Shown here piece by piece: positions 1 through 16,100 of a DNA stretch of 64,000 bases. A program made the position numbers and the translations under genes. Position 1 is the stretch's first letter; every line of letters begins with the position of its first letter. Source of the DNA: a virus; IMG/VR virus record IMGVR_UViG_3300009514_000007, positions 1 through 64,000 of that record; one strand, 5' to 3'. The notes under the pieces were generated by a model. That model was not told where the DNA came from and ran no database searches. It saw only the letters and a list, made by a program, of their open reading frames with translations.

Positions 1-1
1 G

Positions 2-178: not shown

Positions 179-190
179 CAGGAGCGCGCC

Positions 191-1237
191 ATGCCCTTCA
201 TCACCCTCAAACGTGACGACGTTCCGACTGGCACTCTCCAGGTGCTTGATCTCAAGCCCAATGAGAGCCAGCGGAACTTGATCTACGAAACGCCGGGTCA
301 AACCAAATACGTCAACCCACACCAGAACGAGACTCCCGTGCTCGTGACGGTTGGACCTGACGAGGTGGTTCAGGACGAGGTGAGAGGGCTTTCGGCGCTC
401 ATGCTCATGTGTTGTTCGGACGGGGTGCTCGTCTCTGCGACGGGCACCCTGACCGTGGCGGGGCCGCTCATTGGCCCACCCGGCCTTCCGTACATCGACG
501 TGGCTGGATTTCCCCTTTCGGCAATCCTCGGACCACGAGCACCCGGCAGCCTTGATTTCGATGTTTCGTCGGGTGTCCCTGCGACGATTGCAGCGGACAT
601 TATCGCGGCTATTTCGGACGTGGCCGGGCCGTGGTTTGGCCTTGGGCTCGCTACCGCAGCGCCAGGAGCACCAGGCGACGTGGTGATCACAGCGGGGCCG
701 GCATCACCTGGCTCGACGGGCAACACGGTCACCTTTGGCCCCGTCATTCCTGACCCGGCCTTTCTGTTTGCACCCCCCACGGGATTCCTGGCTGGAGGGT
801 CCGATGGTGCGCCTTTGACCGCTGCCACTGCCGTAACTAAGGCACAGGACGTGTTGGACGACATCGTGCGGTACGGCGACCTGACGGCTCCTGCGCTGGA
901 TGCCGACCTGGCTTCGGTCAACGCAGCCCTGGCTCCTTCGGTGCTTTCCGCAGCGAGCCACCAATTCATGCTGCGAATCTTGGCGGGCGAGGAATTCGTT
1001 GTCCCTGCCGGGAACATCCAGTCCACAGGCGGGGCGTTGGCCCCTGACCCGCCCATCACGGACGCCAATTTCACGGCCGGTACGAACCGGACTACCTACG
1101 ACACCGACAGTCTGTTGCTCTCTGCGAATACCGGGCATCTGTCGATCCTTCTCCGTAACTCATTTGAGGTTGGCGGTGTCGGAGGTACCAACGGAGAAGC
1201 CATTATCGTGTACAACGACGACGGCACCTTGTTTTAG
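191..1237 (+). CDS. Unknown structural protein with a module shared with the tail sheath
   Basis: This 348-aa protein starts 12 nt after the previous stop with AGGAG upstream. The N-terminal ~80 residues are beta-rich. Around residues 80-190 is a beta module carrying the string FDVSSGVPATIA, which recurs almost exactly in the tail sheath at about residue 878 (FDVSSGVAATIA). After a linker and a helical stretch (~205-260), the C-terminal ~60 residues match the preceding truncated gene and end in YNDDGTLF. No enzymatic motif is visible. The shared module and the location suggest a virion-surface or decoration protein. Family unknown to me. Confidence 0.75.
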   Translation: MPFITLKRDDVPTGTLQVLDLKPNESQRNLIYETPGQTKYVNPHQNETPVLVTVGPDEVVQDEVRGLSALMLMCCSDGVLVSATGTLTVAGPLIGPPGLPYIDVAGFPLSAILGPRAPGSLDFDVSSGVPATIAADIIAAISDVAGPWFGLGLATAAPGAPGDVVITAGPASPGSTGNTVTFGPVIPDPAFLFAPPTGFLAGGSDGAPLTAATAVTKAQDVLDDIVRYGDLTAPALDADLASVNAALAPSVLSAASHQFMLRILAGEEFVVPAGNIQSTGGALAPDPPITDANFTAGTNRTTYDTDSLLLSANTGHLSILLRNSFEVGGVGGTNGEAIIVYNDDGTLF

Positions 1238-1292
1238 CGCGTAGCGCTTTCCTTCCGGCTTCGGTCGGAATGGCTCAAACGAAAGATGGACA

Positions 1293-1559
1293 ATGCAACA
1301 ACCCAAGCAGTACCGAACGGCAGACCTCTACTATGCCGCGTATCTCCGAGTCGCAGGATGCAGCATGATCGAAGCGACAGTGGTGAAAGAAGGCGGCCAA
1401 AAGCGGGTGTTCTTTTACTTTGAGCCCTCCGAGGGTCTCAAGGATCTGAAACGCGACTATTTCAACCGCAAGGGGAAGGTCGCGGCGCTCCAGTACGCTG
1501 ACGAGGTACGAAGCATGAAAAACCTAACCCACGAGGCACTGGCTGACGATGCTGCTTGA
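1293..1559 (+). CDS. Small DUF5659-like protein
   Basis: This 88-aa protein shows the pattern YRTADLYYAAYL near the N-terminus, then a beta hairpin ending in VFFYFE, and a C-terminal helix with ALQYADEVRSMKNL. I associate this layout (Y.t.DL..AayL, FfFE, a..y.da.r.lk.l) with DUF5659 proteins common in phage structural regions. The biochemical role of that family is unknown. The gene overlaps the next one by 11 nt, so translation is probably coupled. The 55 nt before it hold only a weak hairpin (about 1251-1268). Confidence 0.7.
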   Translation: MQQPKQYRTADLYYAAYLRVAGCSMIEATVVKEGGQKRVFFYFEPSEGLKDLKRDYFNRKGKVAALQYADEVRSMKNLTHEALADDAA

Positions 1560-2289
1560 CGGTTTGTTCGCGGATCCAGAAGGGCCGAGCAAGATCGCGT
1601 TCACTCCGATCTCGACCGAGGCTCGTCGTGCTTTTCAGCGCGAGATCCTGCCGCAAATCGGGAAGATCAAATCCGTCGAAGACCTGTCCAAGATCGTTAT
1701 CGAGATCACGGCAGCCATCCGCGAGGCGAGCACGGCGAAGGACACGCTCTACACTCGTCTGGTCAGGCACAAAGCCATCGATCAGGTGGACGACTCGTTC
1801 TTTGCCAACATCCTGACGGTCCTCCAACAGTGGTCGTCGGACACGCTCGACAAGCTGCGTGAGGCCCCGGAGCAGGCAGCCGCCCCCAAGACCGAGAACC
1901 GAGTACCAAAGGTCGAGCCCGAGGGGGCTCCCCCGCCTCCAGCGCCCGCTCAACAGCCGGTCGTTCAGCAAGCGGTGCCGGTCCAGACGCCGCAGATGGA
2001 CCCCGTGCAGGCGCTTCGGGAGGATCTCGCGGAACAGCTTGGTGCGAATCAAAACATGACCCCGTGGGATCTGGTGCGTTCTCTCCAGACCGTGTTCCAA
2101 AAACATGGTGTTTGGCGCGCCTATGCGTCGGCTCGCAGTAAAACAGCGGTCACGATCGGCTTCGGGACGTTTGGTGTCGAGGATGTGGTGCTCAGGCAAC
2201 GGCCAGGTCAAGGATGGGGAACTGCCCTCGGGCTGGACAGCAAAACTGCGGCACGGGAAATCATGGTACGCATGGCGAGGGCAGGGTGA
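1549..2289 (+). CDS. Unknown protein with Pro/Gln-rich linker
   Basis: This 246-aa protein begins inside the end of the preceding gene. Residues 1-105 are predicted helical (several Glu/Lys/Ile-rich amphipathic stretches). Residues ~108-150 form a Pro/Ala/Gln linker. Residues ~155-245 are a compact C-terminal domain rich in Phe/Gly/Val. The two-domain-plus-linker architecture fits a scaffolding or adaptor role in virion assembly, but no specific family is recognised. The next gene starts four bases after its stop. Confidence 0.65.
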   Translation: MLLDGLFADPEGPSKIAFTPISTEARRAFQREILPQIGKIKSVEDLSKIVIEITAAIREASTAKDTLYTRLVRHKAIDQVDDSFFANILTVLQQWSSDTLDKLREAPEQAAAPKTENRVPKVEPEGAPPPPAPAQQPVVQQAVPVQTPQMDPVQALREDLAEQLGANQNMTPWDLVRSLQTVFQKHGVWRAYASARSKTAVTIGFGTFGVEDVVLRQRPGQGWGTALGLDSKTAAREIMVRMARAG

Positions 2290-2292
2290 TCC

Positions 2293-3222
2293 GTGGCTGT
2301 TGCGTTTTCGCCAGGGCAAGACATCGGCCGAGGCGACCTCGACATCTTTACGAAGAACGCCGTTGGCAACCCTGCTAACGCCGCGACGATCAGCTACGCG
2401 ATCTTCTTTGTGGACACGTCGGGTGGCCTACCCGGCACCGAGGTACTGATCGGTCCCGCCGTGCGCGTGCCAGTCAATCCGACCGTAGGGGAATACTACG
2501 CAGCCCTGACAGTCCCTCCCGGTGCGACGCCGGGGGACTACCGGATCCGGTGGACATTCACCGAGCTACCTGGCTACCCCGAGCAGCAAGTGGTGCAGGA
2601 GTTTGCCGTCGTGGATCCGGCAACCGCATCGCCTGGAGGCGGTGGTGGAGGGCCTGGAGGAACGCCTTTCACGTCGGCCCAACAGGACATGATTAGCCGC
2701 TTGCGGATCCTGTTGCGTGACAACAACCCTGACCGCAACTACCGCTTTCGGCCGCCCGAGCAAGAGGGCGTGATCAAGCAGTTCAATCAGGTGTTCGGCT
2801 TCATCTGGGAGGACCATGAGCTACTGGAGTACCTGGAGAGGTCGCTCGATTGGTGGAATATGTTTCCGCCTTCGACCCCTGGCGTGAACACCATCGACAA
2901 GCTCGTGGCGCAGAAGCCCGAGTGGCGCACGGTGATCATGTGGGGCGCCATCGCGCACGCCATGTTCGCTCTGTCCGCGAATTGGGTGGCTGACGAATTC
3001 GACTACTCGATCGGCGGGATCAGCCTGAGCATCGAGAAATCGAGCAAATACGAGAGTTTGAAACAGAACGCCGAGTCGATGTACGATAAGGCGACGGAAG
3101 CAAAGACACAGACGGTGCGTGTGATCCGAGGGCTTGCGCAACCCCGCTTCGGTATCGGCATCCGTTCCGCTTTCGGTCCTCACGTTGGGCGAGGGGTGCT
3201 CTCACCTAGGAATTTCATCTAA
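2293..3222 (+). CDS. Putative head-tail connector/neck protein with N-terminal Ig-like domain
   Basis: Starts at GTG directly after the previous gene. Residues 1-110 read as an Ig-like beta domain (GEYYAALTVPPGATPGDYRIRW then a final EFAVVD strand). A Gly-rich linker (~115-125) leads to a helical domain of ~180 residues. The C-terminal half contains IGGISLSIEKSSKYESL, a pattern I associate with phage neck or head-completion proteins. It overlaps the following gene by one base (TAATG). The connector assignment is an inference from this motif and from the position upstream of neck and sheath genes. Confidence 0.6.
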   Translation: MAVAFSPGQDIGRGDLDIFTKNAVGNPANAATISYAIFFVDTSGGLPGTEVLIGPAVRVPVNPTVGEYYAALTVPPGATPGDYRIRWTFTELPGYPEQQVVQEFAVVDPATASPGGGGGGPGGTPFTSAQQDMISRLRILLRDNNPDRNYRFRPPEQEGVIKQFNQVFGFIWEDHELLEYLERSLDWWNMFPPSTPGVNTIDKLVAQKPEWRTVIMWGAIAHAMFALSANWVADEFDYSIGGISLSIEKSSKYESLKQNAESMYDKATEAKTQTVRVIRGLAQPRFGIGIRSAFGPHVGRGVLSPRNFI

Positions 3223-3443
3223 TGGTAGACATCACCAAGCTCGCTCGCCGAGTCGCTGAACGCCATGCGGAGAAAACCGCACGCCGTTGGCCTCGTCCTA
3301 CTGACCGCAAACCCTCTACGCGCCAACTGGAGGCGTGGGTGTACGACTCGGTGGTGGACGCAACCGATGGGTGTCAGGTTGAGCCTGATGGCGTCTGCCC
3401 CCACGGACACCCCTCGTGGCTCCTGTACCTCGGGATGATCTGA
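3222..3443 (+). CDS. Small Cys/His protein (CPHGHPSWLL type)
   Basis: This 73-aa protein has a basic N-terminal helix followed by a compact C-terminal motif with Cys51, Cys59, His61 and His63 (DGC...DGVCPHGHPSWLL), suggesting a metal-binding knuckle. Similar small proteins ending in PHGHPSWLL.LG.I occur in phage genomes, without known function. The ATG shares its A with the preceding TAA, and the stop TGA overlaps the next ATG, so it is embedded in a coupled series. Confidence 0.7.
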   Translation: MVDITKLARRVAERHAEKTARRWPRPTDRKPSTRQLEAWVYDSVVDATDGCQVEPDGVCPHGHPSWLLYLGMI

Positions 3444-4195
3444 TGGAATTGGTAGCCGACAAGTGGGTCAAGGCGGCATCCGAGCGGGTAGCCGATCGCT
3501 ACGTGTTGGCAGCGGACATGCGGCGTATCCTGTCGCAGCTTTACCGGCCGGTGCAGCCCTACGTGAAGCGGTGGGACCAGTTCCTTCTCAACCTTGCCAC
3601 CGCGTACCGCGAGGATCTTGAGTGGGTGATTCCGGCGTTCGGCGACGAGTGGGACTCCAAACTCACGAACATCGGGTCGGGCTGGTACGAATGGCAGGGT
3701 CCGCAAATTGGTGGTTACGGCTATCGAGGCAATCGAGGGTACGATCCCCCTGAGTACGCGGAGCAGTCGGTCGAGGTTCCGTCAGGCGGCACGCTCACCT
3801 TGACCGGGTTTCAGTCTCTCCGTCGCTGGCCGCATGACATGGCCCGGATCTGGCGGAGCGAGATCAAGGACCCCAAAGGGTTCAGGGACGCGCTGTACCA
3901 CATGCTTGAGAACCAGGCGTCGGTGAAGCTCCTGGCGAAGCTCACGGCCAACGCGATTCAGGGAGCGTTTCGCACGGGTTGGGCTGACGACTGGATCGTA
4001 GACCTCGTGAGCGAGGAAGACTGGAGCGACGCTTTCGACATGGGATGGTCGGGGAGCGTGAGCCTTAAAGAAACAGGGCGCCCCGTGGTGCGTGTGACAC
4101 CACAGGGCGACGGGTTCAAGATGGTCGTCACGGTGGACGTTGAGGTTGACGTAGAGGACGTGGAGCCGCCCGAACCTGATGTCGAGCCCTGGTAG
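3443..4195 (+). CDS. Unknown virion-associated protein
   Basis: A longer reading frame exists from GTG 3416, but ATG 3443 overlaps the previous TGA (TGATG) and gives the N-terminus MELVADKWVKAASERVADRY, which resembles the basic helical start of many phage structural proteins. That ATG is preferred. The 250-aa product has a helical first third, a middle Gly/Tyr-rich stretch (GGYGYRGNRGYDPPEY, ~95-110), a further helical part, and an acidic C-terminal tail of alternating Val/Asp/Glu ending in DVEPW. No family is recognised. It is the last plus-strand gene before a convergent minus-strand gene only 3 nt away. Confidence 0.6.
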   Translation: MELVADKWVKAASERVADRYVLAADMRRILSQLYRPVQPYVKRWDQFLLNLATAYREDLEWVIPAFGDEWDSKLTNIGSGWYEWQGPQIGGYGYRGNRGYDPPEYAEQSVEVPSGGTLTLTGFQSLRRWPHDMARIWRSEIKDPKGFRDALYHMLENQASVKLLAKLTANAIQGAFRTGWADDWIVDLVSEEDWSDAFDMGWSGSVSLKETGRPVVRVTPQGDGFKMVVTVDVEVDVEDVEPPEPDVEPW

Positions 4196-4198
4196 GGC

Positions 4199-4768
4199 TT
4201 AGTGCCAGCGAGCCAAGCTGCGTCGCTTGCCGTCGAACAGGCCCTTGACGTAGTAGCCGGTGCGGCCCTGCTCCAAGTGAGCGCGGCAAATGTCGGCGCC
4301 GGTTGCCGACACGCGAACGTAGTCGAAGCCTTCCCATTTGGCCGCATCCGTTTCCGCGACGCGGGACCACTTGTCGCTGCTCAGCTTTGCGTTCGGATCC
4401 TCGACTCGGCGGTAGTGCCAGGTGTTTCCGCCGTTGGTGATTCCGTGACGCCGAAGGTAGCGGACGTAGAACGTAAGCTCTCCGTTCGCGGGGTTCATGG
4501 CGACGCCTCGGTGGTAGGTCTGACCTCCGGTGACGTGGGTGGGAACCTCGGTCCAGGTCACGGCGGCGAACACCGTGTAGCTCTGGTCAGCCTTGGGGGC
4601 ACTCGGGAGTTTTTCCGTCTGGCGCTCGATCACCTGCTCCAATTCCTCCGCGCGCGACAGCCCCTCTTTCGGGTACATCGGGGGGGTGTCGGGGGTGCAA
4701 GCGGCAAGCTCGGCTTGGAATTTCTCGATGCGGGTGGAAATCTGCTCGTAGGTGTCTTGAACGTACAT
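4199..4768 (-). CDS. Minus-strand orphan gene, unknown function
   Basis: This is the first of three genes opposite to the structural operon. The frame extends upstream to 4822, but ATG 4768 has GGAGG (4776-4780 on the plus strand as CCTCC) at 7-nt spacing, so a 189-aa product is chosen. It begins with a coiled-coil-like helix (MYVQDTYEQISTRIEKF), has a charged helix around residues 35-60, and continues as a mixed alpha/beta domain ending in KRRSLARW. No recognised motifs. The isolated antisense position, clean ribosome site and proximity to a promoter-like element (4839-4848) suggest an independently expressed accessory (moron-like) gene. Confidence 0.65.
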   Translation of the reverse strand: MYVQDTYEQISTRIEKFQAELAACTPDTPPMYPKEGLSRAEELEQVIERQTEKLPSAPKADQSYTVFAAVTWTEVPTHVTGGQTYHRGVAMNPANGELTFYVRYLRRHGITNGGNTWHYRRVEDPNAKLSSDKWSRVAETDAAKWEGFDYVRVSATGADICRAHLEQGRTGYYVKGLFDGKRRSLARWH

Positions 4769-4815
4769 TTTGTGTCCTCCGAACCACTTAACGACGCAAT
4801 TTCCGCGCCAGAAAC

Positions 4816-4848
4816 CGCGCAAGAGGCGCGATTAGTCCGCCTATAGGC
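4816..4848 (+). promoter_or_regulatory. Candidate phage promoter element (hairpin + AGTCCGCCTATAGG)
   Basis: A GC-rich hairpin (arms 4816-4820 and 4826-4830) is followed three bases later by AGTCCGCCTATAGG (about 4834-4847), whose centre GCCTATAGGC is a perfect 10-bp palindrome. The same arrangement precedes the FmdB-like and tube genes. There is no convincing -35 hexamer. It lies 14 nt upstream of the spanin-like pair and 71 nt upstream of the minus-strand start at 4768, so it could serve either or both strands. Confidence 0.45.
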
Positions 4849-4861
4849 TCCCATTCACAGG

Positions 4862-5149
4862 ATGCCCGGCGACAGCACAAGCAAAGGAAACACGAAAACG
4901 ATCGATCTGGCGCTCAAGCTGCTCTCGACGCTTGTGATCCCACTGATCGTGTGGGGCGTGCGCTTGGAGGTCAAAACCGCCATCCAAGACGAGCGGATCG
5001 CTGAATTGGAGGACGACGTTCAGAAGAATTCGGGCATCTCCACGGCGGTTCAAGAGAATTCCCTGACCCTGGTCAAGCTGGAGGCCAAGATCGATTCCGT
5101 AGGAGACAAGATCGATGACATCAAGAAGCTACTGGCTGGTACTCGGTAG
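4862..5149 (+). CDS. Small membrane-anchored coiled-coil protein, i-spanin-like candidate
   Basis: This 95-aa protein has a short polar N-terminus, one transmembrane segment at about residues 16-33 (LALKLLSTLVIPLIVWGV), then an uninterrupted coiled-coil-like helix to the end (residues ~37-92). A type II membrane protein with a periplasmic coiled coil is the architecture of inner-membrane spanins such as lambda Rz. The next gene, a lipoprotein, starts inside its 3' end in another frame, as with Rz/Rz1. It is shorter than Rz and no holin or endolysin lies nearby, so a holin-like or other membrane role remains possible. The start has only a weak AGG directly before ATG. Confidence 0.5.
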   Translation: MPGDSTSKGNTKTIDLALKLLSTLVIPLIVWGVRLEVKTAIQDERIAELEDDVQKNSGISTAVQENSLTLVKLEAKIDSVGDKIDDIKKLLAGTR

Positions 5150-5708
5150 CCTTTTGATCGTCGGTTGCCCCGCAGCGCAGGACGGAGCCCCGGTTCAGGC
5201 GACCCGCGAGATCGAAATCCCCGACACGGGGGATGCCAAACCCGAGGATGTGAAGGGCGATCCCGATCCGATTCCCGAACCGGAATCCGATCCAACCGAG
5301 CCGGAATCCGATTCGGGCGGTGATCCGGGCGGGGCGCTGGCACACATGCCCGACCCTGACCCTCTCGTACCGGATGCTCGGTGGGAACCCAAAACCAAAA
5401 AGAAGCCGAAGGGTGCGGTGTGCCGACCCGACTACGACCTTTTCGACGGCAAGTGCTTCCCCGCTGAGAAGGCCAAGAAGCTCCAAGAGAAACGAGACGA
5501 GAAGCATCTCAAGGAGCTACAGGACGCCAAGACCCCTGTCCAACAAGAGCAGGTGCAGCAAAAGGTCTTGGACGATCAGGTGCAGCAGTTGGATCAGTAC
5601 GAGGACGACCTGGACGAGATTTTGGACGACCTCGCCAAGAAAAAGAAAAAGGGTGAGGGTCCGTTCAACAAAAAGGGCGGCGGCCTTGACGATCCGTTCG
5701 ATGGGTAG
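5115..5708 (+). CDS. Outer-membrane lipoprotein, o-spanin-like candidate
   Basis: This 197-aa protein starts within the previous gene (35-nt overlap, different frame) with AGGAG at 9-nt spacing. The N-terminus MTSRSYWLVLGSLLIVGC is a typical lipoprotein signal with lipobox IVGC and acylation at Cys18. The mature part is Pro/Asp/Glu-rich (~25-80), contains a short CRPDYDLFDGKC loop (~98-110), then Lys/Glu/Gln-rich helices, ending in a Lys-rich linker and an acidic tail. Proline richness, lipidation and nesting with an inner-membrane coiled-coil gene fit an Rz1-type partner, but it is much longer than Rz1 (~60 aa). A surface or moron lipoprotein is an alternative. Confidence 0.5.
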   Translation: MTSRSYWLVLGSLLIVGCPAAQDGAPVQATREIEIPDTGDAKPEDVKGDPDPIPEPESDPTEPESDSGGDPGGALAHMPDPDPLVPDARWEPKTKKKPKGAVCRPDYDLFDGKCFPAEKAKKLQEKRDEKHLKELQDAKTPVQQEQVQQKVLDDQVQQLDQYEDDLDEILDDLAKKKKKGEGPFNKKGGGLDDPFDG

Positions 5709-5718
5709 AGTGGGCACC

Positions 5719-6195
5719 ATGACCGATACTCCCAACACCGAAACCGAAACTCCCAAGGACGCCGAGACTGAGGCGGTCACGACCGACGCCGAGACTGTCG
5801 AGGTCGATCCGAACCTGCTCGGGCAGATGGCTCCCGAGGAAGCCAAAAATCTCTACTCCTGGCAGGCCGAGGTTCAACAGCTTCTCAAGGCCGTGGGCGA
5901 AAAAGAGGTTCAGATCAGCCGCATCGAGGCCATGCGCGACGCCAAGGTTGGTGAGAAAAAGGCGATGATCGCCCGCATGGAAACCTTGGAAACGAACGCA
6001 CAGCGGTTGCTTGCGGACGTGCGCAAGCGATTCAACATCACCGACGACATCAATTGGCGGACCCTTCCCGATGGCCGTATCGAGAAGATCGATCCAGACT
6101 TGATCAAGGCCGCACAGGCTGCCCAAGCCCAAGCCCAAGCCCAAGCCCAAGCTCAGGCTCAGGCGCAAGCACAAGGAGCGGCGGAAACGCAGTAG
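5719..6195 (+). CDS. Helical protein with C-terminal Ala-Gln repeat
   Basis: The frame is open from 5320, but the upstream part is out-of-frame reading of the lipoprotein gene. ATG 5719 gives a 158-aa product. Residues 1-35 are Thr/Glu/Asp-rich and likely disordered, ~40-115 form amphipathic helices, and the C-terminus is an Ala-Gln dipeptide run (~133-152) encoded by five perfect gcccaa hexamers and degenerate copies. No family is recognised. The next gene starts 3 nt after the stop. Confidence 0.7.
   Translation: MTDTPNTETETPKDAETEAVTTDAETVEVDPNLLGQMAPEEAKNLYSWQAEVQQLLKAVGEKEVQISRIEAMRDAKVGEKKAMIARMETLETNAQRLLADVRKRFNITDDINWRTLPDGRIEKIDPDLIKAAQAAQAQAQAQAQAQAQAQAQGAAETQ
6121..6174 (+). repeat. 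Hexanucleotide microsatellite encoding (Ala-Gln)n
   Basis: Five perfect tandem gcccaa units (6121-6150) are followed by two gctcag units, then gcgcaa and gcacaa. Six-base units keep the frame, so copy-number change would alter only the length of the Ala-Gln tail. Confidence 0.85.
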
Positions 6196-6198
6196 GTC

Positions 6199-7650
6199 AT
6201 GGTTGATCTCGGATGGGCACCGTCAGTAGGAGACAATCCATACCCGCCAGCCAATGTGCAGGTGGTGAGTCCCCTATACAGTGGTGCCCTCGACATCCGT
6301 TGGGATGACCCGAGGATCAACCCCTGCAACTCAGGCTTCGACATCGTTGGGGTCAACATCTATCGCTCCGATACGACGGAGCGCGGACCCTACCATCGGA
6401 TCAACCGCTTTCCCGTTGGGGGCGGCTTCTACCGCGACCAGACCGACAACGCTTTCGTTGAGCGAGAGGTCGTTCACTGGACGCAGGACTGGATCGCGCG
6501 CGGAGAGTCTGCCAACGGGAATCGTTGGACCTTCCGAACTAAGCGGTGCCCGATCGTCAAGAAGGCGGGCCAGGCCATCACGGCGAACAGCCCGGCCGAC
6601 GTGCAGGTGACGATCAACGGTGTGCTCGTTCCGGCCCATGCGGTGTTCGGCACGACCGGCGAGGTCACGTTGATCAATACCGAGACGTTTGACATCGCCC
6701 GGCAGATCAAGCGGCCTCCCGTTTTGCCTGACGAGAACGCGACGGTCACGGTCACGTATTTCTACAACCGCAACCTCGTGGAGCAGAGGCTCGACCAAAA
6801 GCTCTGGTATCGGGTCACGTCGGTTGCTACTTGCCTGGACGAGAACGGCAACCCGCTTACCTCGTCCGGTTACATCGAGACTCCGCTTCGGTTCGCGCAA
6901 CCGATCACGAACCATCAGATCGAGACAATGGATTGGATCTGGCGGGAGGCAATCAGGCGGAACAATTGGATGCTGGAGCAGGGGGGCGAGCGGGTCAAAG
7001 TATTCATCCGCAAGACCAGTGGTACTCCTTGCTTCTGTGGCATTGACCCGCGCTCCATCGAGATCGGACATCAACCTCGCAACAAGTGCGAGCAGTGTTT
7101 CGGTGTCGGCTTCATCGGAGGGTACGAAGGCCCCTACGACCTGATCATTTCGCCCGACGAGGGCGCGGATCGTCGGGTGCGGCAGACTCCCGAGGGCCGG
7201 ACGTTGGAGCATCAGTGGGACGTGTGGACGGGGCCGAGTCCTGCGCTGACGCAGCGTGATTTCATCGTGCGCCAAACGAACGAGCGGTACTCGGTCGGGG
7301 CGGTGCGTAAGCCGAGTGCGCGCGGCAATATCATGCAGCAGCAGTTCCAGATCAAATACCTTGAGGAAAACGACATCCGTTACGAGGTACCGCTGGACGA
7401 CCCCGCAGGCTTGACGTGGCCGGAGTGTCGCGTCCTTCCACCGACGCTCACGGGAGGCGCGTGGCGCCCTGTGGAAGCGTTTGGCCCCCATCCCGAGGGC
7501 GTTCACGAGACGACCCCCCACACCACCGAAAAAGAGAACATCCCTGACGAACGCGAGATTCGCGGCCGTACCGCTGTTTGGGAGAATACGACATACGGCT
7601 TGCTACCTTGGGCGGTATGGCTGGCCGATGGAATTTTTGGGCTCATGTAG
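6199..7650 (+). CDS. Neck/connector-type structural protein with zinc-knuckle
   Basis: This 483-aa protein opens with an Fn3-like domain (NVQVVSPLYSGALDIRW; VNIYRSD; ~15-80). A second beta module at ~130-200 reads VQVTINGV...VTVTYFYN and matches modules in the tail sheath. A helix with WIWREAIRRNNWMLEQGGE (~238-256) precedes a metal-knuckle-like motif with Cys278, Cys280, Cys297 and Cys300 (CFC...CEQC) and a conserved-looking WTGPSPALTQRDFIVRQ segment (~340-356). I recall this Cys motif followed by GGYEGPYD in neck-region proteins of other large myoviruses. Its position between connector and tail-completion genes agrees. Confidence 0.6.
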   Translation: MVDLGWAPSVGDNPYPPANVQVVSPLYSGALDIRWDDPRINPCNSGFDIVGVNIYRSDTTERGPYHRINRFPVGGGFYRDQTDNAFVEREVVHWTQDWIARGESANGNRWTFRTKRCPIVKKAGQAITANSPADVQVTINGVLVPAHAVFGTTGEVTLINTETFDIARQIKRPPVLPDENATVTVTYFYNRNLVEQRLDQKLWYRVTSVATCLDENGNPLTSSGYIETPLRFAQPITNHQIETMDWIWREAIRRNNWMLEQGGERVKVFIRKTSGTPCFCGIDPRSIEIGHQPRNKCEQCFGVGFIGGYEGPYDLIISPDEGADRRVRQTPEGRTLEHQWDVWTGPSPALTQRDFIVRQTNERYSVGAVRKPSARGNIMQQQFQIKYLEENDIRYEVPLDDPAGLTWPECRVLPPTLTGGAWRPVEAFGPHPEGVHETTPHTTEKENIPDEREIRGRTAVWENTTYGLLPWAVWLADGIFGLM

Positions 7651-7722
7651 GCCACAATGTCCAAGCGGCACCTACCGCCGGATTTACCGTAACTGGTGCC
7701 CGGACGAAGAATTGGCCGTCTG

Positions 7723-8313
7723 ATGTACAAGGTAACTCCAGTTCGCACTGCATACGGCAAGCCCTGGTCTCAGTTGATTGGGGAGATGTCGGTCAACAAG
7801 GATTTCTTGAAAGAGGTCGGCGATATTCTCGTCAAAGCCGTCGTCAAAGAGGCGCGTGCCGACCTCGCCAAGCAGGGCAATCGTCCTACTGCGCGTGGGA
7901 AGGCCGAGGGTATCCCGAACGACGAGAAATTCTTTCAGTCGTTCTCGCATCGGATCACAGGTCGTAGTTCGATCGAGATCGTTTCGACCTGGCCGTGGAT
8001 CGAGCAGGTCATTCAGGGCCGTAGCCCCTACCGGATGCACTGGCTGCGGCAGACCAAAGGGGTGGTAAATGCGCCGCTGTTCTCTGAGCCCGGCAGTCGA
8101 GGTCGCCGTGCTATGCGAAAGGGGAAAGCGGGTTCGCCGGGTAAGGTGCTTATGAGAACCACTCCGGGGAAATTCAAGCGGGGCTGGTTGCACCCCGGTT
8201 TCGCCAAACACAATTTCGTTGACCGTGCCTTCCGCAAAGCCAAGACCGATATTGACGACGCCCTGCTCAAGCGGCTCGATAAGGCGTTGTCGAAATCCGA
8301 CAACATCCGATGA
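7723..8313 (+). CDS. HK97 gp10-like tail-completion/neck candidate
   Basis: ATG 7723 overlaps an upstream TGA and is preferred over GTG 7696, giving 196 aa. The protein is basic and shows FFQSFSHRI near one third, then a Trp/Pro/Tyr segment, and close to the C-terminus GWLHPGFAKHNFVDRAF, which resembles the HPG....F..r.. motif of HK97 gp10-type tail-completion proteins. The rest is helix-rich. Its place between the neck protein and the sheath fits. Confidence is limited because the family is very divergent. It ends in an ATGA overlap with the next gene. Confidence 0.45.
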   Translation: MYKVTPVRTAYGKPWSQLIGEMSVNKDFLKEVGDILVKAVVKEARADLAKQGNRPTARGKAEGIPNDEKFFQSFSHRITGRSSIEIVSTWPWIEQVIQGRSPYRMHWLRQTKGVVNAPLFSEPGSRGRRAMRKGKAGSPGKVLMRTTPGKFKRGWLHPGFAKHNFVDRAFRKAKTDIDDALLKRLDKALSKSDNIR

Positions 8314-9011
8314 AAGAGGCACACGTAATATGCAAGATCACGCAGATCCGATTGCCGGACCTTGGCCTCACCTTGTCCAGCGGCGACGAGATCTGGTTGT
8401 CCGAGCGGGACGCCAGGCGGTCCACGGATCTGCAACATGCTCGTCGGGTGGGAGCCGTCGAATTGCTCTGGCAGGAGAGATGCCGCGTGAGTAGGCCGCC
8501 TGCCCCACCCCACTTTCGCAAGCTCCGTCCCGGCCAGCGTAAACAGGTCGAGGTATCGGTGCCGGAGACAGCGCCTAGCCCTGCGCCCGCTGCTCCGGCT
8601 GTGAGTGCTGACGAGATTGCCAAGAGCGTGAGGGCTACTGTGGCCGCCGAGGTCGCCCGCCAGATGGGCAACTTGGAGGGTCAGATGGACGACATGAAGG
8701 CGGACATCGTGGCTCAGGTGACGGCGGCGATGGCAGGGCAAAAGGGCACGGACCCTGAGCAGTTGGCCGCCATTCTCAAGAGCACCCTGGAGGCGGTGCT
8801 GCCGACTCTCCCGGCTGCCGCTCCCCAAACAGGCCCCGCTGTGGCCCGACGCGACGATCCCCTCTATATCCCGACCGTCGATGTCAGCAAGAAAACCAAG
8901 GGCAAGGTCGAGGTGCAACAGACGACCACCGCAGGTGGTGGCCTAGACGATGCAGCGGCGGCCTTGAAAGCATTGAAACGGAAACGGAAAAAGGACCAAA
9001 CCAATGACTGA
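8310..9011 (+). CDS. Small beta domain plus Ala/Pro-rich helical tail, unknown
   Basis: This 233-aa protein overlaps the previous stop (ATGA). Residues ~8-55 follow the pattern I.LPDLGLTLSSGDEIWLS...RRSTDLQHARRVGAVELL, which I recall from small phage proteins encoded near sheath genes. A Pro-rich stretch (~60-100) then leads to amphipathic helices (~100-150), an Ala/Pro linker, and a Lys-rich C-terminus (KALKRKRKKD). It overlaps the actin-like gene by 8 nt, so the two are probably translated together. Function unknown. Confidence 0.65.
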   Translation: MKEAHVICKITQIRLPDLGLTLSSGDEIWLSERDARRSTDLQHARRVGAVELLWQERCRVSRPPAPPHFRKLRPGQRKQVEVSVPETAPSPAPAAPAVSADEIAKSVRATVAAEVARQMGNLEGQMDDMKADIVAQVTAAMAGQKGTDPEQLAAILKSTLEAVLPTLPAAAPQTGPAVARRDDPLYIPTVDVSKKTKGKVEVQQTTTAGGGLDDAAAALKALKRKRKKDQTND

Positions 9012-10023
9012 AATGCACCCCGGAGTAGGATTGGATTGCGGCACGATGAATTTCGTTTCCGCACGGCTGACGGACGAGGGAATTCGTACTCGTCGGATGC
9101 GAGATGCGTTTCTCGACCTCCCGCTGGAGAGCAAGAAGATGCTCAAACTCGGTGGGGTCAACTACGTCGAGATGGGCGAGGGCGACGACAAGGTACTCGT
9201 CGTCGTTGGTGACGCCGCGATGGAGTACGCCAATCTGTTCGGCAAGGACGTTCGGCGACCGCTCCAAGCGGGGCTGATCTCTGCTGGTGAGATCGACGCG
9301 ATCGACGTGCTCGGTGTTTTGGTCAAGCACGTCCTCGGTGACCCGACCGTGCCCGACGAGTATTGCTACTTTTCGGTTCCGGCGGCTCCGGTGGACGACC
9401 CGTCCAAGAACGTGATCTACCACCGTGGCGTGTTGGAGCGGATCATCGGAGCGTGTGGGTACACGCCCGTGGCCTCCAACGAGGCCCTGGCGATCATCTA
9501 TGCCGAGACAGCCAAGGACGGGTTCTCGGGCATCGGTATCTCGATGGGCTCGGGCATGAGCAACGTCGCGCTCGCCATCGGCACGATCGAGGGGCTGTCG
9601 TTTTCGGTGGGTCGCGGCGGCGACTGGATCGATCAAGGCGCTGCGTCGTCCCTGGACTCCACGGCGGCGAAGATGTGCGCGCTCAAGGAGAAGGGCATCG
9701 ATCTGATGAATCCGACGAGCCGCGAACAAGAGGCTTTGGCGGTCTATTACAAGCATCACATTGAGTACGTGCTCGACCTGTTCATCGCTGAATTCGTCAA
9801 GATCAAGGACAAGTTCGCCATCCCCAAGGCCATCCCTATCGTCGTCGGCGGAGGTACCAGTCTCCCCGATGGCTTCATGCCGTTTTTCCGTCAGGTGTTC
9901 GACGCCAAGAAGCGCAAGTTTCCGATCGAGATTTCGGAGGTCCGTCACGCTTCTGCCCCGCTCAATGCGGTGGCGCATGGCTTGCTGATTCAAGCGGGGC
10001 AAGAGTACGAGGACGATGAATGA
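9004..10023 (+). CDS. Actin/Hsp70-fold ATPase (MreB/ParM-like)
   Basis: This 339-aa protein carries the five sugar-kinase/Hsp70/actin motifs in order: phosphate-1 GLDCGTMN (9-16) with the expected Asp11; connect-1 NEALAIIYAE (159-168); phosphate-2 GIGISMGSGMSNVAL (176-190); an adenosine motif IPIVVGGGTSLPDGF (277-291); and a connect-2-like SAPLNAVAHGLLI (317-329). GRGGDWID (203-210) resembles the segment after phosphate-2 in MreB and DnaK. Length suits a filament-forming bacterial actin and is too short for a full Hsp70. It is coupled by overlap to genes on both sides within the virion operon, with no recognisable ParR partner. A filament for positioning or maturation, or a chaperone-like ATPase, are both possible. 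Confidence 0.85.
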   Translation: MTEMHPGVGLDCGTMNFVSARLTDEGIRTRRMRDAFLDLPLESKKMLKLGGVNYVEMGEGDDKVLVVVGDAAMEYANLFGKDVRRPLQAGLISAGEIDAIDVLGVLVKHVLGDPTVPDEYCYFSVPAAPVDDPSKNVIYHRGVLERIIGACGYTPVASNEALAIIYAETAKDGFSGIGISMGSGMSNVALAIGTIEGLSFSVGRGGDWIDQGAASSLDSTAAKMCALKEKGIDLMNPTSREQEALAVYYKHHIEYVLDLFIAEFVKIKDKFAIPKAIPIVVGGGTSLPDGFMPFFRQVFDAKKRKFPIEISEVRHASAPLNAVAHGLLIQAGQEYEDDE

Positions 10024-10312
10024 CGAGTTCGATACAAGGAAAGCGAAGATCGTAGATCGCTTGACCGAGGCTATACGTGACCTTTCCGAGCTTTACGCCA
10101 ACCACCCTGAGCAGGTTGCTCAGTGTGTGGACGAGCCTACGGCGACCATCACCGTGTTCTCGCGGAAAGGTGGTGAGACAGCCGAGATCGTCAATGCTTT
10201 TCCGGTGTCCAGCCAGCACACGTCTTGGGATGCAGACCGAGACGCGTACATTTGGGGGCCGGTCGTTTACTGCGTCTTTGGGGTATCCCGAGGCGAATTA
10301 CCTATCCACTAG
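10016..10312 (+). CDS. Small protein coupled to the actin-like gene
   Basis: This 98-aa protein overlaps the 3' end of the actin-like gene by 8 nt, implying translational coupling and possibly a joint function. Residues 1-38 form an amphipathic helix (KAKIVDRLTEAIRDLSELY) and the remainder looks like a small beta domain (TATITVFSR, AYIWGPVVYCVFGVS). It lacks a ribbon-helix-helix pattern, so it is not an evident ParR-type adaptor. No family is recognised. Confidence 0.65.
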   Translation: MNDEFDTRKAKIVDRLTEAIRDLSELYANHPEQVAQCVDEPTATITVFSRKGGETAEIVNAFPVSSQHTSWDADRDAYIWGPVVYCVFGVSRGELPIH

Positions 10313-10356
10313 CAACAGGCCAAACAGGCCACAACCACAACCACAAGGACAAGAAC

Positions 10357-10734
10357 ATGACACGCAAGCAAGTTGCGGACACAAAACAGGATGGGGTCAC
10401 GCCCATCGCCTTCATCGTTGGCACTGTCTCTGAGTACCTTCACAGGACCGGAAGCAAGGACTGCCCATGCAGTCACACTTTCCCTGGATGCGCCGTGTGC
10501 AGGCCGCATCACGCGGGTTTCCAGATTCAGGCGGCGATGGCGGACGAGCGGGTTGCCCGAGTGATGGCTCATGCCCGTCACGAGAGTGTGCGCTCGATCT
10601 TCATGCGCAACGACACCCTGCCTACGGGCAAGGCGCTCGACACCGCCTTTTGGTCGCTGGCCCTGCAAGGGGTTAGTGAGCCGGTGCTCGGCCAGCTTCG
10701 GGCGGCCAGCGAGGCACAGCGGGAGGTCGCCTGA
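10357..10734 (+). CDS. Small Cys/His-rich, probably metal-binding protein
   Basis: The frame extends to 10225, but ATG 10357 has AAGGA upstream and begins where the preceding gene has ended, giving 125 aa. Residues 36-52 hold Cys36, Cys38, His40, Cys45, Cys48, His51 and His52 (CPCSH....CAVCRPHH), a likely zinc site. The C-terminal ~70 residues are helical. No family is recognised. The stop overlaps the next ATG (TGATG). The 44-nt spacer before it contains a direct repeat of aacaggcc and two acaacc units. Confidence 0.65.
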   Translation: MTRKQVADTKQDGVTPIAFIVGTVSEYLHRTGSKDCPCSHTFPGCAVCRPHHAGFQIQAAMADERVARVMAHARHESVRSIFMRNDTLPTGKALDTAFWSLALQGVSEPVLGQLRAASEAQREVA

Positions 10735-11021
10735 TGGCTGGCAAGACTCTCACTCAACTCATGCGCGCGAAGGTGATCGAAACGGAGCACACGGCCCCAC
10801 GGATCACTGGCGAATTCAATGTCGCCGTCCCCGTCCCCGGCGGGTTTCGGATCGAGCGTAGATCGAATATGGACGATAGCTGGATCGAGGACTACGACCC
10901 TGAGCGATGGGGCGTAATTGGACCTGCGGGCATCATCCATGTCCCCGATCTTGGCCTGCGCCGGGAGGCCGCCGCTAGGGTGGCTATGCGCTATCGTAGT
11001 CGAAGGGCTGCGATCACGTAG
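10734..11021 (+). CDS. Small protein of unknown function
   Basis: This 95-aa protein starts by TGATG overlap. After a helical N-terminus, residues ~27-60 look beta-rich (FNVAVPVPGGFRIERRS) and residues ~73-90 form a basic helix. Its TAG stop is in the same frame as the next gene with no other stop between them, so rare readthrough would yield a 10734-12314 fusion. Nothing else in the window suggests TAG reassignment. Confidence 0.6.
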   Translation: MAGKTLTQLMRAKVIETEHTAPRITGEFNVAVPVPGGFRIERRSNMDDSWIEDYDPERWGVIGPAGIIHVPDLGLRREAAARVAMRYRSRRAAIT

Positions 11022-11023
11022 CC

Positions 11024-11039
11024 GGAGGGTACGGCCATC
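11024..11039 (+). promoter_or_regulatory. Ribosome binding site pointing to an AUC start
   Basis: GGAGG at 11024-11028 is followed 8 nt later by ATC at 11037. No ATG, GTG, TTG or CTG occurs in this frame between the upstream stop (11019-11021) and TTG 11079, and that TTG has no purine-rich site before it. Confidence 0.55.
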
Positions 11040-12314
11040 TACTTTCAACTCACAGATTCGGTACAACGTCGCTTCATCTTGGAGCTACGTCGGTTCTGGT
11101 CGTACCACCCGAAATTTCGGGACATCGTTGATCACATCCAGGGCAAGTATTCGTGGAAGGAACGCCCACAGCGGGGCATCGTGCTCAAGAACAGTAGCGG
11201 CAACCAGTTCCAACTGGCGGCCGACAACTTTCAGGGCACGGTGTTCTCGCACATCCACCAAGCACGGGTGGAGAACTACCCTGGAGTGGCCTTGGAGTGG
11301 GTTCGGGAGGACGGTCGCGCGATCCAGCGCAACAACGGCATCTTCCCGAGCGCTCCGGGCATTTACTACATCGAGATCACCCACGTCGCCGAGAATTGCT
11401 CGTACTTTGAATTCTACATCGACCCCCTACTCGACGTGGTAGGGGAGTCGGTGACGATGGTGAGCGAGACGGTTGGGGTGCTCCAGTCGGGTAAATTCCT
11501 CGACGGCACGCTCCGCCTGTTCCAGATGCCTGGCAATGTCCCGCTCTTTGAGGGGATCAACTACACGGCCGACACGGACACGGGCGAGATAACGCTCCTG
11601 ATCCCGCTCCCCGAGGGTGGGTTCCTGTCTGCCGAGTATCGCTGGCCCGCTTCGACCAACGCTGAATCGGCCGCTGTGCGTCCCCTGGACGCCGCTGGTA
11701 ACGCTCAGCCGTGGACGGGGATGCCTAACCGGGGGCTGATCGAACCGCTCCCTGGAGTCGTGCTCGCGTTTGGGACACGCATCGAGGAAGGCGATCGGAT
11801 GGCGGTCGTCGTGGGGCACAACCGGGCTCCGACCGCGCAGGAGTATGGGGGCCGGTGGAACCTTTCGATCGATTTCGACGTGATGGCCCGAGATCCGTAT
11901 GACCAACGCGAGATTTTGGATCGCACCATGCTCTATCTCTGGGCCGTGCTTCGTTCTCGCCTGAGCACGGAGGGTATTGAGATCGAGGCGGTGAACGGTG
12001 GGGGCGAAACCGAGGAAATTTACGACGAGAACGGCGACGACTATTTCTACAACGCCAGCTTCTCGGTTCAGATCCAAACGGACTGGTCGATCCATGTTCC
12101 GATCGCGGCCACCATCCAGCGCGTCCAGCCGGTGTCGTTGAGCGTTGAGCAGCAAGCGGCCTCCATGACGCCCGAGGAAATCGCCATGCTGGAGAGCAAT
12201 TTCCAAATGCTCGATGGCATGGGGCTCAAGCTGGTGGACGACCCGTTCTTTGGAGGCCGTCCCGGCAGGAATCCAATTCTGCCCCGATCCTCCACGTTTG
12301 AGGTCATTCGGTAG
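11037..12314 (+). CDS. Conserved neck/tail structural protein, probable AUC start
   Basis: With initiation at ATC 11037 the product is 425 aa. The conventional alternative, TTG 11079, gives 411 aa but lacks a ribosome site and drops a plausible helix (FQLTDSVQRRFILELRRFW). Residues ~20-140 include HPKFRDIVDHIQGKYSWKER and GVALEWVREDGRAI, patterns I recall from structural proteins next to the sheath in large myoviruses. The middle contains beta-rich sections, and the C-terminal ~120 residues include an acidic segment and a helix before FEVIR. It may be a tail-terminator or sheath-adjacent neck component, inferred mainly from its place immediately before the zinc ribbon and sheath. Confidence 0.6.
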   Translation: MYFQLTDSVQRRFILELRRFWSYHPKFRDIVDHIQGKYSWKERPQRGIVLKNSSGNQFQLAADNFQGTVFSHIHQARVENYPGVALEWVREDGRAIQRNNGIFPSAPGIYYIEITHVAENCSYFEFYIDPLLDVVGESVTMVSETVGVLQSGKFLDGTLRLFQMPGNVPLFEGINYTADTDTGEITLLIPLPEGGFLSAEYRWPASTNAESAAVRPLDAAGNAQPWTGMPNRGLIEPLPGVVLAFGTRIEEGDRMAVVVGHNRAPTAQEYGGRWNLSIDFDVMARDPYDQREILDRTMLYLWAVLRSRLSTEGIEIEAVNGGGETEEIYDENGDDYFYNASFSVQIQTDWSIHVPIAATIQRVQPVSLSVEQQAASMTPEEIAMLESNFQMLDGMGLKLVDDPFFGGRPGRNPILPRSSTFEVIR

Positions 12315-12338
12315 GTACGCCCTCGATCAGATCTGCCT

Positions 12339-12400
12339 CACAAAGCGCTGTAGGGCTGTGGAGCGGCTCCCGCTAGTCCCCCTATAAATCCCGCTTTGTG
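12339..12400 (+). promoter_or_regulatory. Candidate promoter element inside a 9-bp inverted repeat
   Basis: The hairpin AGCGG-CTC-CCGCT (12362-12374) is immediately followed by AGTCCCCCTATAAAT (12375-12389), the same layout as at 4816-4848. The whole is bracketed by perfect inverted repeats CACAAAGCG (12339-12347) and CGCTTTGTG (12392-12400). In a read-through transcript these would form a long stem-loop covering GTG 12398 but leaving GGAGG 12403-12407 just outside. Confidence 0.45.
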
Positions 12401-12402
12401 AC

Positions 12403-12418
12403 GGAGGACTGTCCGATC
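12403..12418 (+). promoter_or_regulatory. Ribosome binding site pointing to a second AUC start
   Basis: GGAGG at 12403-12407 is 8 nt before ATC 12416, which is exactly where the FmdB-family consensus methionine of M-P-I-Y-E-Y should be. GTG 12398 in the same frame has no purine-rich stretch upstream. Confidence 0.6.
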
Positions 12419-12919
12419 CCGATCTACGAGTACCAGTGCGCCGCGTGTGGCCTGAGATTTGAGAAGATGCTGAGCGCTACCAAAGCTGCGGCTGACCAGC
12501 CGTGCTCGCGGTGTGAAGCCGTCTCCCCTCGCTACCTCTCGGCCCCCTCGTTTGCTTTTGGTGGACGGTCGGATGGCGCCCGCCCGCAGAACACGGGGGC
12601 GACGAGCGTGGACCTGGATTGGGATCGTGCCGTGGGGCGTGACGCCGAGGTTCAGTGGGAAGCGGTGTCCGCGCGGCTCGCTCGCAAGCGACAGATCATG
12701 GCCGAGACAGGAGCGACGGGATTCGATCTCACCGCGACTCCCTCGACCGAAGCCGAAGGCCCCTCGGACTACCGAGTGATGCGGCCGGAGGAACGACGCG
12801 CTGCGGAGACAGCGCGAAGCCTTCACCACGGAGCGGTCAACAAGATCAAGGCGTTCATCGCCGACCGCAAGCAACAAGATTCCCGGCCGCGTGCGGCTGG
12901 TGAAAGGCCCCGCTCGTGA
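12416..12919 (+). CDS. FmdB-type zinc-ribbon protein, probable AUC start
   Basis: The N-terminus reads (I)PIYEYQCAACG, matching the FmdB zinc-ribbon signature MPIYEY.C..CG with the initiator encoded by ATC. Zinc ligands are Cys8, Cys11, Cys30 and Cys33. The 167-aa protein continues with NTGATSVDLDWDRAVGRDAE (~55-75) and helical segments, a C-terminal region I recall from phage zinc-ribbon proteins encoded beside sheath genes. The role is unknown; a structural or assembly factor is likely given the location. From GTG 12398 it would be 173 aa with six extra residues. Confidence 0.7.
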   Translation: MPIYEYQCAACGLRFEKMLSATKAAADQPCSRCEAVSPRYLSAPSFAFGGRSDGARPQNTGATSVDLDWDRAVGRDAEVQWEAVSARLARKRQIMAETGATGFDLTATPSTEAEGPSDYRVMRPEERRAAETARSLHHGAVNKIKAFIADRKQQDSRPRAAGERPRS

Positions 12920-13166
12920 GAGTGGCGTCCAACCTGAGCGGCATCGCCGCCAAATGTAAATCGACCAACAAATAGACGTACCGGGCACTCGCCCACTTTG
13001 CGCTGACTACCTCCCTTCGGGGATGGACACGACCCGACAGATCAACAGTAGCGACGGAACCCAACTGAAACGCACCGGCCCCAATGCAAGGGCCTAACTG
13101 GAACGCTACTCGCGGCAAATTTGCCGCCACAGGGATCGTTTGTCCCTAAATCGAACGAGGTGAGTG
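12920..13166. other. 247-nt leader upstream of the sheath gene
   Basis: No credible gene is seen on either strand. The region holds a short UUCG-loop hairpin (13012-13023), a palindrome at 13112-13127 and the sheath ribosome site GAGG at 13157-13160. Its length is unusual for this compact operon and suggests regulation of sheath expression. Confidence 0.5.
13112..13127. promoter_or_regulatory. Perfect 16-bp palindrome upstream of sheath gene
   Basis: gcggcaaatttgccgc is its own reverse complement, 40 nt before the sheath start. There is no T-run after it, so an operator or RNA hairpin is more likely than a terminator. Confidence 0.6.
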
Positions 13167-16100
13167 ATGGCCTTTCCCGGCTCGGTATACGCGCCCCCAA
13201 GTGTTTACACGCAAACGCTTTTCAACAACCCGGTTCAAGCCGCTGTCACGGGGGTTCGCATCCCCGTGTATCTCGGCACCGGCAACGAGATCCTGACCCA
13301 AGAGGACTTGCAAGTAGTTCGTGGGTCGAGTGCGTCCGTTGACCAACAGGTTCCCAAGGAAGATCTCGACGGCCGCGCGGTCGCCGACATCCTGGCTTCG
13401 GGCCAGGTGATCCTCGGCAACTTTGACGGTTCGCGTCGGCTCGTTCAGGTTCGCAATTTCCCGATCGTGACGGGCGACGGCAGCGGGACAACCGCCGTCA
13501 ACGCGGCGAACATTCGGGTGACGATCAATGGTCGTCCCGATGTGGTTCTGACCGTCCGTGGCGACGAGGGAATTCTGGAGCTTTCGACGGCGCCGACCCC
13601 GGAGGACGAGGTTCGGGTCACGTACTTTTTCAACCGCACGGACACTCAGGCGACCGACAATGTGTCGGCCCAAGTGACCCCGAGCGCGGCGATCATCCGG
13701 GGGCTCAACGGCGAGCCCGTGGGTGGGTACGAGGTACTCCCCGGCAACAACACCCTGATCGTCAACGTGGACGGTGAGGATGTTGTCGTGGATTTCGGCA
13801 CCGGGTTCAAATCCGCTGCGACCCTCGTCTCCCTGATCAATGGTGCAGGTGCGGCGACCTCACTCACCGCCACGACCTACGGCACCAACTTTGGGGAGAT
13901 CGCGGTCGCTCTGACCGCTGGCGAGGATTTGGAGATCGGGGCAGGCTCGGCCAATACCCTGCTCGGCTTCACCACTGGAGACTCCACAAGCCGTCAAAGG
14001 GTGTTCTACACCTACAACGGCCCCATCGTTGAGGGCGACAATGGCGGTATCACCACGACCGACCCCTCCAAGGTCACGGTCACGGTGGACGGTCAAGAGG
14101 TCGTTCCCTCGGCGGTCAACGGCCAGACTCGTGGCGTGACCCTGCCCTTCGCGCCGCCCTCTGGCTCGACGGTCGAGATCACCTACTTTTGGAACACCTG
14201 GCAGGACACGTTCGACTACCTGGCGCACATCAATGTCACGGACATTCAGCGCGTCGGAATCGTGCCCGGCAACAGCGATTTCATCGAGCAGGCGGACTAC
14301 GTTCTCAAGAACGACCTGATCGTGTGGGGCACCGCTGCTCTGATCGAGAGCGGGGTCAACACCCAAGGCACCGCCCTTTTCAACGAATCGCAGGTCACTG
14401 CAAACCTCGTGGACGTTCAGAGTTTCCTGAGCGTGGCGACCCCGGTGACGGACACCACCGTCAACCCGCCGCTCACGAGCACGACTCGGTTCCAGCTTCC
14501 GCTCCAGCCCACGACGGGCAACGGGCGCAACACTCCGCTTGGATCGGATCTGTTCCAGACGGTGAGCAACGGTCGAATCGACCTGCCCACGAACCGCCCG
14601 GATCTCGTCCAGGCGTATTGGGGCTGGTCCGTGCAGGACGCTCTGGAGCGCGGCCAGGTCACGGTTTTGCGTGTCGAAGGCACCGAGATCACGCTCGCAG
14701 AGGCCGTCCCGGTCGGTGCGACGGTCTACGCGACCTTCTACTACAACACCCTCGTTGACGAGGAATACACCCTTGAGGTTGACGTGCCCGGCCCCGCTGG
14801 CATCGGCACGTATTTCGTCAAGGACAAGAATGGTCGTGACCTGTTCACCCCGCGTTTTGGCGCGAAGGGTGCCCTGCTCACGGGCATCACGGTCCAGTTC
14901 CCGAGCGGGTCGGAGCTTACGCCCGACGTTCGCTTTGAGAGCGGATCCCAGGGGCCGGTCGAGGAAACCGTCACGGTTACCTTCGCCAACAAGGACGCCA
15001 CGCTTGCCAAGTACAGCGTGCCTGGCTCGGGTCCGTATTTCACGATCACGGACGCCTCGGACCATGCTCGGTTCACCATCGACAGCACCGCGCTCACGGG
15101 TGGCGGCGCTGGCATCGACCTGAGCCGCGTCGATGGCATCGAGGGCCTTGGCTTCTCGGCTCACCTGCTCGGTGAGGAAATCGCCTACACGGCTGCTTCG
15201 GGTCTTACGACCTACGATGTCGAGTCTGGCGTGAATGACGAGCTTGCGCTCACCCTGGACGGTGTGACGATCACCGTTTCGGTTCCGCCTGGAACCGGCG
15301 TGGATGCTAGCCGCTACGTTGACGCGATCAATGAGCAGGCCAAGAGCACGGACAACCCGACCGTTTACACGGCGGCGACCCGCTTCACGGGCGCAACCGA
15401 GATCACGGCCGGCGAGTACGACAAGTTCACGTTCCACTACAACGGCGACGTGGCTGGCCTCTCGGGTCCGCTGGCGATCACCATTCCACCCGGCACCTAC
15501 AACAGCCCGGCGACCCTCGCTACGGCGATTCAGGGTGTCGTGACTGCCGCCATCGGTGGTCTGGGCGCTCCCTTTGCCGGGTTGGCCCTCACGGTGGGTG
15601 CGAATGCGAACGGCCAACTGACCTTCGCTCTCGATGCCGCCACGGGTGACAAGGGAACGGCGTGGACCGACACCATTACGGTGACGGGCGCTCCGCTCCC
15701 CGTTCCGGGCGACACGGTGGACATCACCGACCCGCTCGGCAACGTCGAGACGTTCACCGCGACGGCCACTGCGACCGTGATCGGATCCGGGGCACGCAAC
15801 TTTGACGTGTCCTCGGGTGTTGCGGCGACGATCGCTACCGAGCTTGACTCGGCGATCAATGACCCGACCAACGGCATCGCGGACACCCTTACGTCCGTCC
15901 CGGTCGGTGCGACGTGTGTTCTCACGGCGGTCGATGTGGGCGTGGTGAGTAACCTGATCAGCATCGCCTTCACGGGCACCATCGGTGCCTTCACCCTCGT
16001 CGGCGCCGTCCCCGGTACCGCAGCGGGTGGTGGCTACCTGGAATTCCTCGATGGCCCCTCGGCCGCAGAGGATTTCTCGGTGCTCGCAGGCATCTCCACT

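Follow-up and report, generated by a model that had tools for sequence, protein, structure and literature searches.

Known phage actins come from a prophage replication system, and the jumbo phages are noted for spindles made of tubulin. The PhuZ tubulin of nucleus-forming jumbo phages is a cytoskeleton linked to virion positioning. The actin ParM is paired with ParR, an adaptor that has a C-terminal actin-binding tail, and the magnetosome actin MamK positions a large cargo, in its case an organelle. The Corynebacterium prophage CGP3 encodes the actin AlpC with the gene for its adaptor, AlpA, immediately upstream; AlpA binds alpS repeats and the alpAC genes are early (PMC4446434). Volactin of Haloferax volcanii (VolA, HVO_2015), a cellular protein with a role in disk shape, forms dynamic filaments whose tips hold them at the membrane (PMC10869688). 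Our search of the open-access literature turned up neither a volactin from a virus nor an actin linked to the genes with which huge phages build their virions. The main huge-phage survey names tubulin and makes no mention of actin (PMC7162821).

We analysed by computation a stretch of 64,000 nucleotides (the window) from IMG/VR record IMGVR_UViG_3300009514_000007, which has 115,952 bases. On its plus strand, an ORF of 339 aa (9004-10023) starts with ATG and runs through without interruption. Its sole Pfam-A match is Volactin (PF25216; E 1.6e-65, residues 8-331), scoring 222 bits where the cut-off is 35 and covering the full length of the profile (positions 3-321 of 321). By sequence, the protein is a member of the Volactin family, as is VolA, which matches PF25216 over its full length. 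Haloarchaeal members are 35-38% identical to the window protein. A PHROGs search with the 339-aa protein gave no significant match, and PDB searches by sequence alone yielded nothing useful with the profiles of the actin, the sheath, the neck-like protein, and the 411-aa protein. The AlphaFold2 model, built with 89 homologues, has a pLDDT of 95 and a pTM of 0.92. In a fold search of the PDB, the top solved structure was the MamK filament 5ljv (TM 0.70/0.73, 19% identity), followed by MreB, and the BeeR filament was present among the 50 best matches. The actin-superfamily fold claimed in the earlier note is thus borne out, and the best matches are polymerising actins. PilM, FtsA, and sugar kinases were all outside the 50 best. 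We rejected a PilM or FtsA identity on this ground, and an Hsp70/DnaK identity since the 339 aa comprise the ATPase fold alone, with no substrate-binding domain and no Pfam Hsp70 match. A PhuZ-type phage tubulin was rejected from the predicted fold, which is that of actin; the likeness to PhuZ is that a very large phage encodes a cytoskeleton. MamK is the closest solved fold but belongs to a different family, as does ParM, and the sole Volactin match likewise sets the protein apart from AlpC. Against close relatives, the actin gene has a dN/dS of 0.09-0.12, among the lowest of the genes around it.

A scan of viral contigs placed volactin relatives in at least 519 IMG/VR stretches, and the records that carry them include some of 485, 497, 533, 595, and 619 kb. 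The tree has three viral clades, A (that of the window), B (LR756511-like), and C. The haloarchaeal clade groups with bacterial sequences, and the tree, which has no root, does not resolve which way transfer went between phages and archaea. In clade A the actin lies within a virion module. In clade B volactin is near genes for PKD-domain, glycosyltransferase-like, and tail-associated lysin proteins, and in clade C it is two genes after a head maturation protease (phrog_94, E 5e-36). Terminase (PF03237) was found in lineage B records only. No tubulin-domain match was found in 13 volactin phage records with PF00091, a profile that may miss divergent PhuZ. One 297-kb contig (G004) carries two clade-A volactins on opposite strands (L111 and L146), either a duplication or a chimaeric assembly. 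Outside the viruses, bacterial volactin relatives (Patescibacteria, Chloroflexi, and others) are found in gas-vesicle clusters with GvpF/L (L032, L033, L036, L044, L045, L063), some of which also hold GvpA, GvpN, a CDC48-like AAA protein, and an ArsA-like ATPase. In Planctomycetota (L027-L030), the volactin domain makes up the C-terminal part of an ORF of 744-940 aa.

The genes of the region described here are on the plus strand, like the actin. Upstream are a conserved 483-aa gene, probably virion structural (6199-7650; weak phrog_2806 and phrog_1004 matches), a neck-like gene of 205 aa (7696-8313; weak phrog_5 Neck1 match), and a gene for a 233-aa protein. Downstream are a conserved 411-aa gene (11079-12314), a zinc-ribbon protein (12398-12919; PF09723, E 2.4e-9), and a tail sheath of 1774 aa (13164-18488; phrog_2839, E 8.1e-30, matched at 17418-18473). 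A baseplate protein is encoded farther along the virion region (51991-53133; phrog_975, E 3.8e-5). The sheath lies 3.1 kb downstream of the actin, and a PHROGs sheath match was found in 9/18 of its homologues (best E 2.9e-31). There is an 8-bp overlap at each end of the actin ORF, with the preceding stop and with the following ORF, and AAAGGA lies shortly before the actin start. The earlier note had placed the actin inside a virion operon, just upstream of the sheath and translationally coupled to neck and connector genes. The position and the overlaps at both ends hold; the neck/connector identity is weak, with phrog_5 matched in 3/22 family members (best E 0.0065). Two other features of the region were recorded. 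A perfect 18-base tandem repeat of 5.6 copies (18792-18892) lies within the ORF after the sheath, and a 3,686-aa ORF in the virion region (37007-48067) had no match in the loci compared.

This synteny near sheath genes recurs in other phages. A profile search of 87 clade-A loci, many of them on truncated contigs, gave a dominant order of 483-aa gene, neck-like gene, 233-aa gene, actin, 411-aa gene, and sheath. The 483-aa and neck-like genes were each found in 77 of the 87 loci, the 411-aa gene in 64, the zinc-ribbon gene in 58, and the sheath in 61. Dozens of contigs, the longest of 619 kb, repeat this order, and in the 485-kb phage LR745208 the module is largely collinear with the window. We also scanned for the module without using the actin. 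With the 411-aa gene as anchor, actin was present in 29/36 loci with full flanks, and with the 483-aa gene in 43/51; wherever found, it was on the same strand as the anchor. Seven records without actin at its place in the module, some of which are fragments, had no volactin match anywhere in the record. Because the anchor scans show phages that lack it, the actin is a usual yet dispensable member of the module and is not essential to this virion type.

The family active site (DxGT, NE, SxGxGMxN, and GG) is found in the window protein. Residue conservation was scored in 89 viral, bacterial, and archaeal family members. In the phosphate-1 motif GLDCGTMN (9028-9051, plus strand, as are all four motifs), D11, G13, and T14 are invariant. 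In connect-1, NE (9478-9483), E160, the likely catalytic-site acid, is invariant and N159 is present in 88/89. In the phosphate-2 motif SMGSGMSN (9541-9564), S180, G182, G184, and N187 are invariant, and in the adenosine motif VGGGTS (9844-9861) G283 and G284 are invariant while T285 is present in 74/89. No loss of core nucleotide-site residues was therefore seen across homologues. The claim that all nucleotide motifs are present and in order stands for these core positions but not for the phosphate-2 Asp of actin and MreB, which is replaced by Ser180 in 89/89 members, haloarchaeal volactin included. Because polymerising actins are recognised by this Asp, we file the protein under the Volactin family and infer filament formation from family and fold. 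ATP hydrolysis may be slow given the Ser, which volactin itself shares. The Ser would also fit an ATPase that does not polymerise, a neck or tail assembly chaperone or scaffold whose ATP-dependent cycle would bind the tail helix of the 233-aa protein. The stoichiometric-looking coupling with virion genes points the same way, and some actin-fold proteins, such as EutJ (rank 24 in our fold search), do not form filaments. We consider this unlikely. The family member volactin makes filaments in cells (PMC10869688), the best fold matches are filament formers, and the protein has no substrate-binding domain.

The earlier note saw no recognisable ParR-type adaptor, a view that the gene directly upstream of the actin now contradicts. 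This gene (8310-9011, plus strand) encodes the 233-aa protein, overlaps the actin start by the 8 bp given above, and immediately precedes the actin gene in 84/87 loci. In 27 loci, with the actin ORF extended to its longest form, the overlap of the two is exactly 4 bases. Alignment and model agree on an adaptor-like layout, with a confident N-terminal beta domain, a flexible linker that includes a long helix, and an end that is conserved. The N-terminal domain (residues 1-57, 8310-8480; pLDDT mostly 96-98) is kept in four phages without actin. The conserved end is made up of a PLYIP-like motif (residues 184-188, 8859-8873), in which P184, I187, and P188 are conserved, and a basic amphipathic helix, GLDDAAAALKALKRK (residues 211-225, 8940-8984). 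We propose this helix as the actin-binding element from the alignment, the model, its co-loss with actin, and the helix profile described below. The adaptor model had no significant match in a fold search of the PDB. No DNA-binding fold was recognised. The N-terminal domain has no known structural relative, and its cargo is therefore a guess. The coupling, the layout, and the co-loss suggest that the 233-aa protein is an adaptor that couples a filament to cargo. An actin fold with an adaptor that has a C-terminal tail is what the locus shares with ParM/ParR, the binding of actin by the window tail being our proposal.

The adaptor tail is lost wherever actin is lost. Among distinct loci where both states could be judged, the tail is present in 70/70 with actin and in 0/8 without. 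The 70 include one locus (L150) that was missed by the pattern and scored by eye. Two divergent long branches, L250 (clade C) and L369, were set aside from the count; both have volactin and no clear tail helix, and are possible counter-examples. L293 and L321, whose contigs end before the expected place of the actin, were excluded from the actin-minus set. In phages without actin, the adaptor gene is undetectable or its N-terminal domain is kept with a different, non-conserved end; the domain persists in this way in four lines. On the tree of the 411-aa protein, the tail and actin traits each change six times. Three phylogenetically independent pairs lie on well-supported branches, or six if every branch is counted, and all agree in direction. 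The co-loss is consistent, but alone it is not significant after tree correction, a test that is underpowered because such pairs are few.

The persistence of the N-terminal domain without actin also counts against the idea that the locus positions or segregates phage DNA. The actin would then be a ParM/AlpC-like motor, the 233-aa protein would bind phage DNA, and the virion genes would be mere neighbours. Two features would suit such a system, namely the basic tail of the adaptor and the placing of its gene before that of the actin, which alpAC shares (PMC4446434). Window positions 1-13200 hold no centromere-like repeats or iteron array, only short coding or low-complexity repeats, and for this reason we do not file the locus as a segregation system. 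It has nothing like the alpS repeats of the AlpAC system, is placed among virion genes, and differs from ParM/ParR in its order of adaptor then actin as well as in having no parC-like repeats. With the lack of a recognised DNA-binding fold in the adaptor and a position in the virion module that is conserved across many phages, we regard segregation as quite improbable.

A search with the adaptor helix led outside the viruses. The weight matrix (15 residues, consensus GLDDAAAALRALRKK) was trained on 78 phage tails only. In haloarchaeal volactin loci, it scored at least 8 bits in 50/52 DUF7139 proteins vs. 2/966 other ORFs, and at least 10 bits in 46/52 vs. 0/966. The match is to the C-terminal tail of DUF7139, and nearly all of the 52 genes are within about 200 bases upstream of volactin. 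Like the window actin, haloarchaeal volactin thus has a directly upstream partner gene with a matching C-terminal helix. The 52 proteins are one family and count as one evolutionary observation, not 52. DUF7139 is multi-copy in haloarchaea (191/195 genomes), and volactin is above cut-off in 117/195. Among the 30 best-scoring DUF7139 proteins of the genome survey, which have no volactin in the ~3.4 kb of sequence retrieved around each, the helix is absent (0/30; best score -1.8), and these paralogues end in a different, Cys-rich tail. The simplest reading of a shared scaffold that has the helix only beside volactin is that the helix is a volactin-binding element. Its recurrence suggests a shared way of attaching filaments to cargo. 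DUF7139 (L021:8869-9825 and 51 other loci) is a candidate membrane anchor of haloarchaeal volactin filaments. As a separate observation, many haloarchaeal genomes encode a second volactin within an open frame of ~650-1360 aa, a possible fused paralogue (e.g., G142:C2:40973-41923 and G161:C1:710374-711321).

Within the viruses, the helix profile found no helix in lineage B. In lineage C, the neighbouring coiled-coil gene has a similar stretch at its end, for which the helix profile is not clearly significant. A protein of 70-80 aa directly upstream of volactin in lineage B ends in a recurrent IPDF...KINFGK-like stretch of its own (L020:19759-19989). The resemblance to a haloarchaeal membrane protein could also be taken as a sign of host takeover, in which an actin cytoskeleton of the host, built of MreB or of a volactin of its own, would be capped, replaced, or disrupted by the phage protein. 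We find this very hard to credit. Haloarchaea are not known to be the hosts, the genes to which the actin is coupled are virion genes rather than early ones, and the helix sits on the actin's own partner.

We consider it somewhat probable that the locus encodes a filament system whose adaptor tethers an intermediate of virion assembly. The volactin-type actin would most likely form ATP-dependent dynamic filaments, presumably late in infection. The N-terminal domain of the adaptor would dock on a part of the assembling virion, on the neck or tail side. A virion cargo is what the module and the persistence of this domain in phages without actin point to. The PLYIP motif and amphipathic helix would bind the actin directly, probably at the filament end, in a tethering modelled on the cargo attachment of ParR-ParM and AlpA-AlpC. 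By growing, the filament would then move, space, or hold newly made tails or heads within an infected cell of very large size, giving the actin a putative role in positioning capsids or tails.

The protein belongs to a known family, and what is new is its virion setting and its adaptor. Neither the volactin family, nor the absence of the actin from some members of the lineage, nor a partner helix like that of a haloarchaeal membrane protein was foreseen by the earlier note. VolA differs in being a cellular gene with a membrane-protein partner, whereas the phage copy has a soluble one. The tail that goes with the actin is seen again on an archaeal membrane protein unrelated to the adaptor, and this association lends itself to a cheap binding test. 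We hold it evenly balanced whether one and the same short C-terminal helix, borne by unrelated partners from neighbouring genes, anchors the volactins of huge phages and haloarchaea to quite different cargo (virion parts and the cell membrane, respectively). If so, the motif that binds volactin would be a portable one, and the phages would devote an actin cytoskeleton to assembling and positioning their virions.
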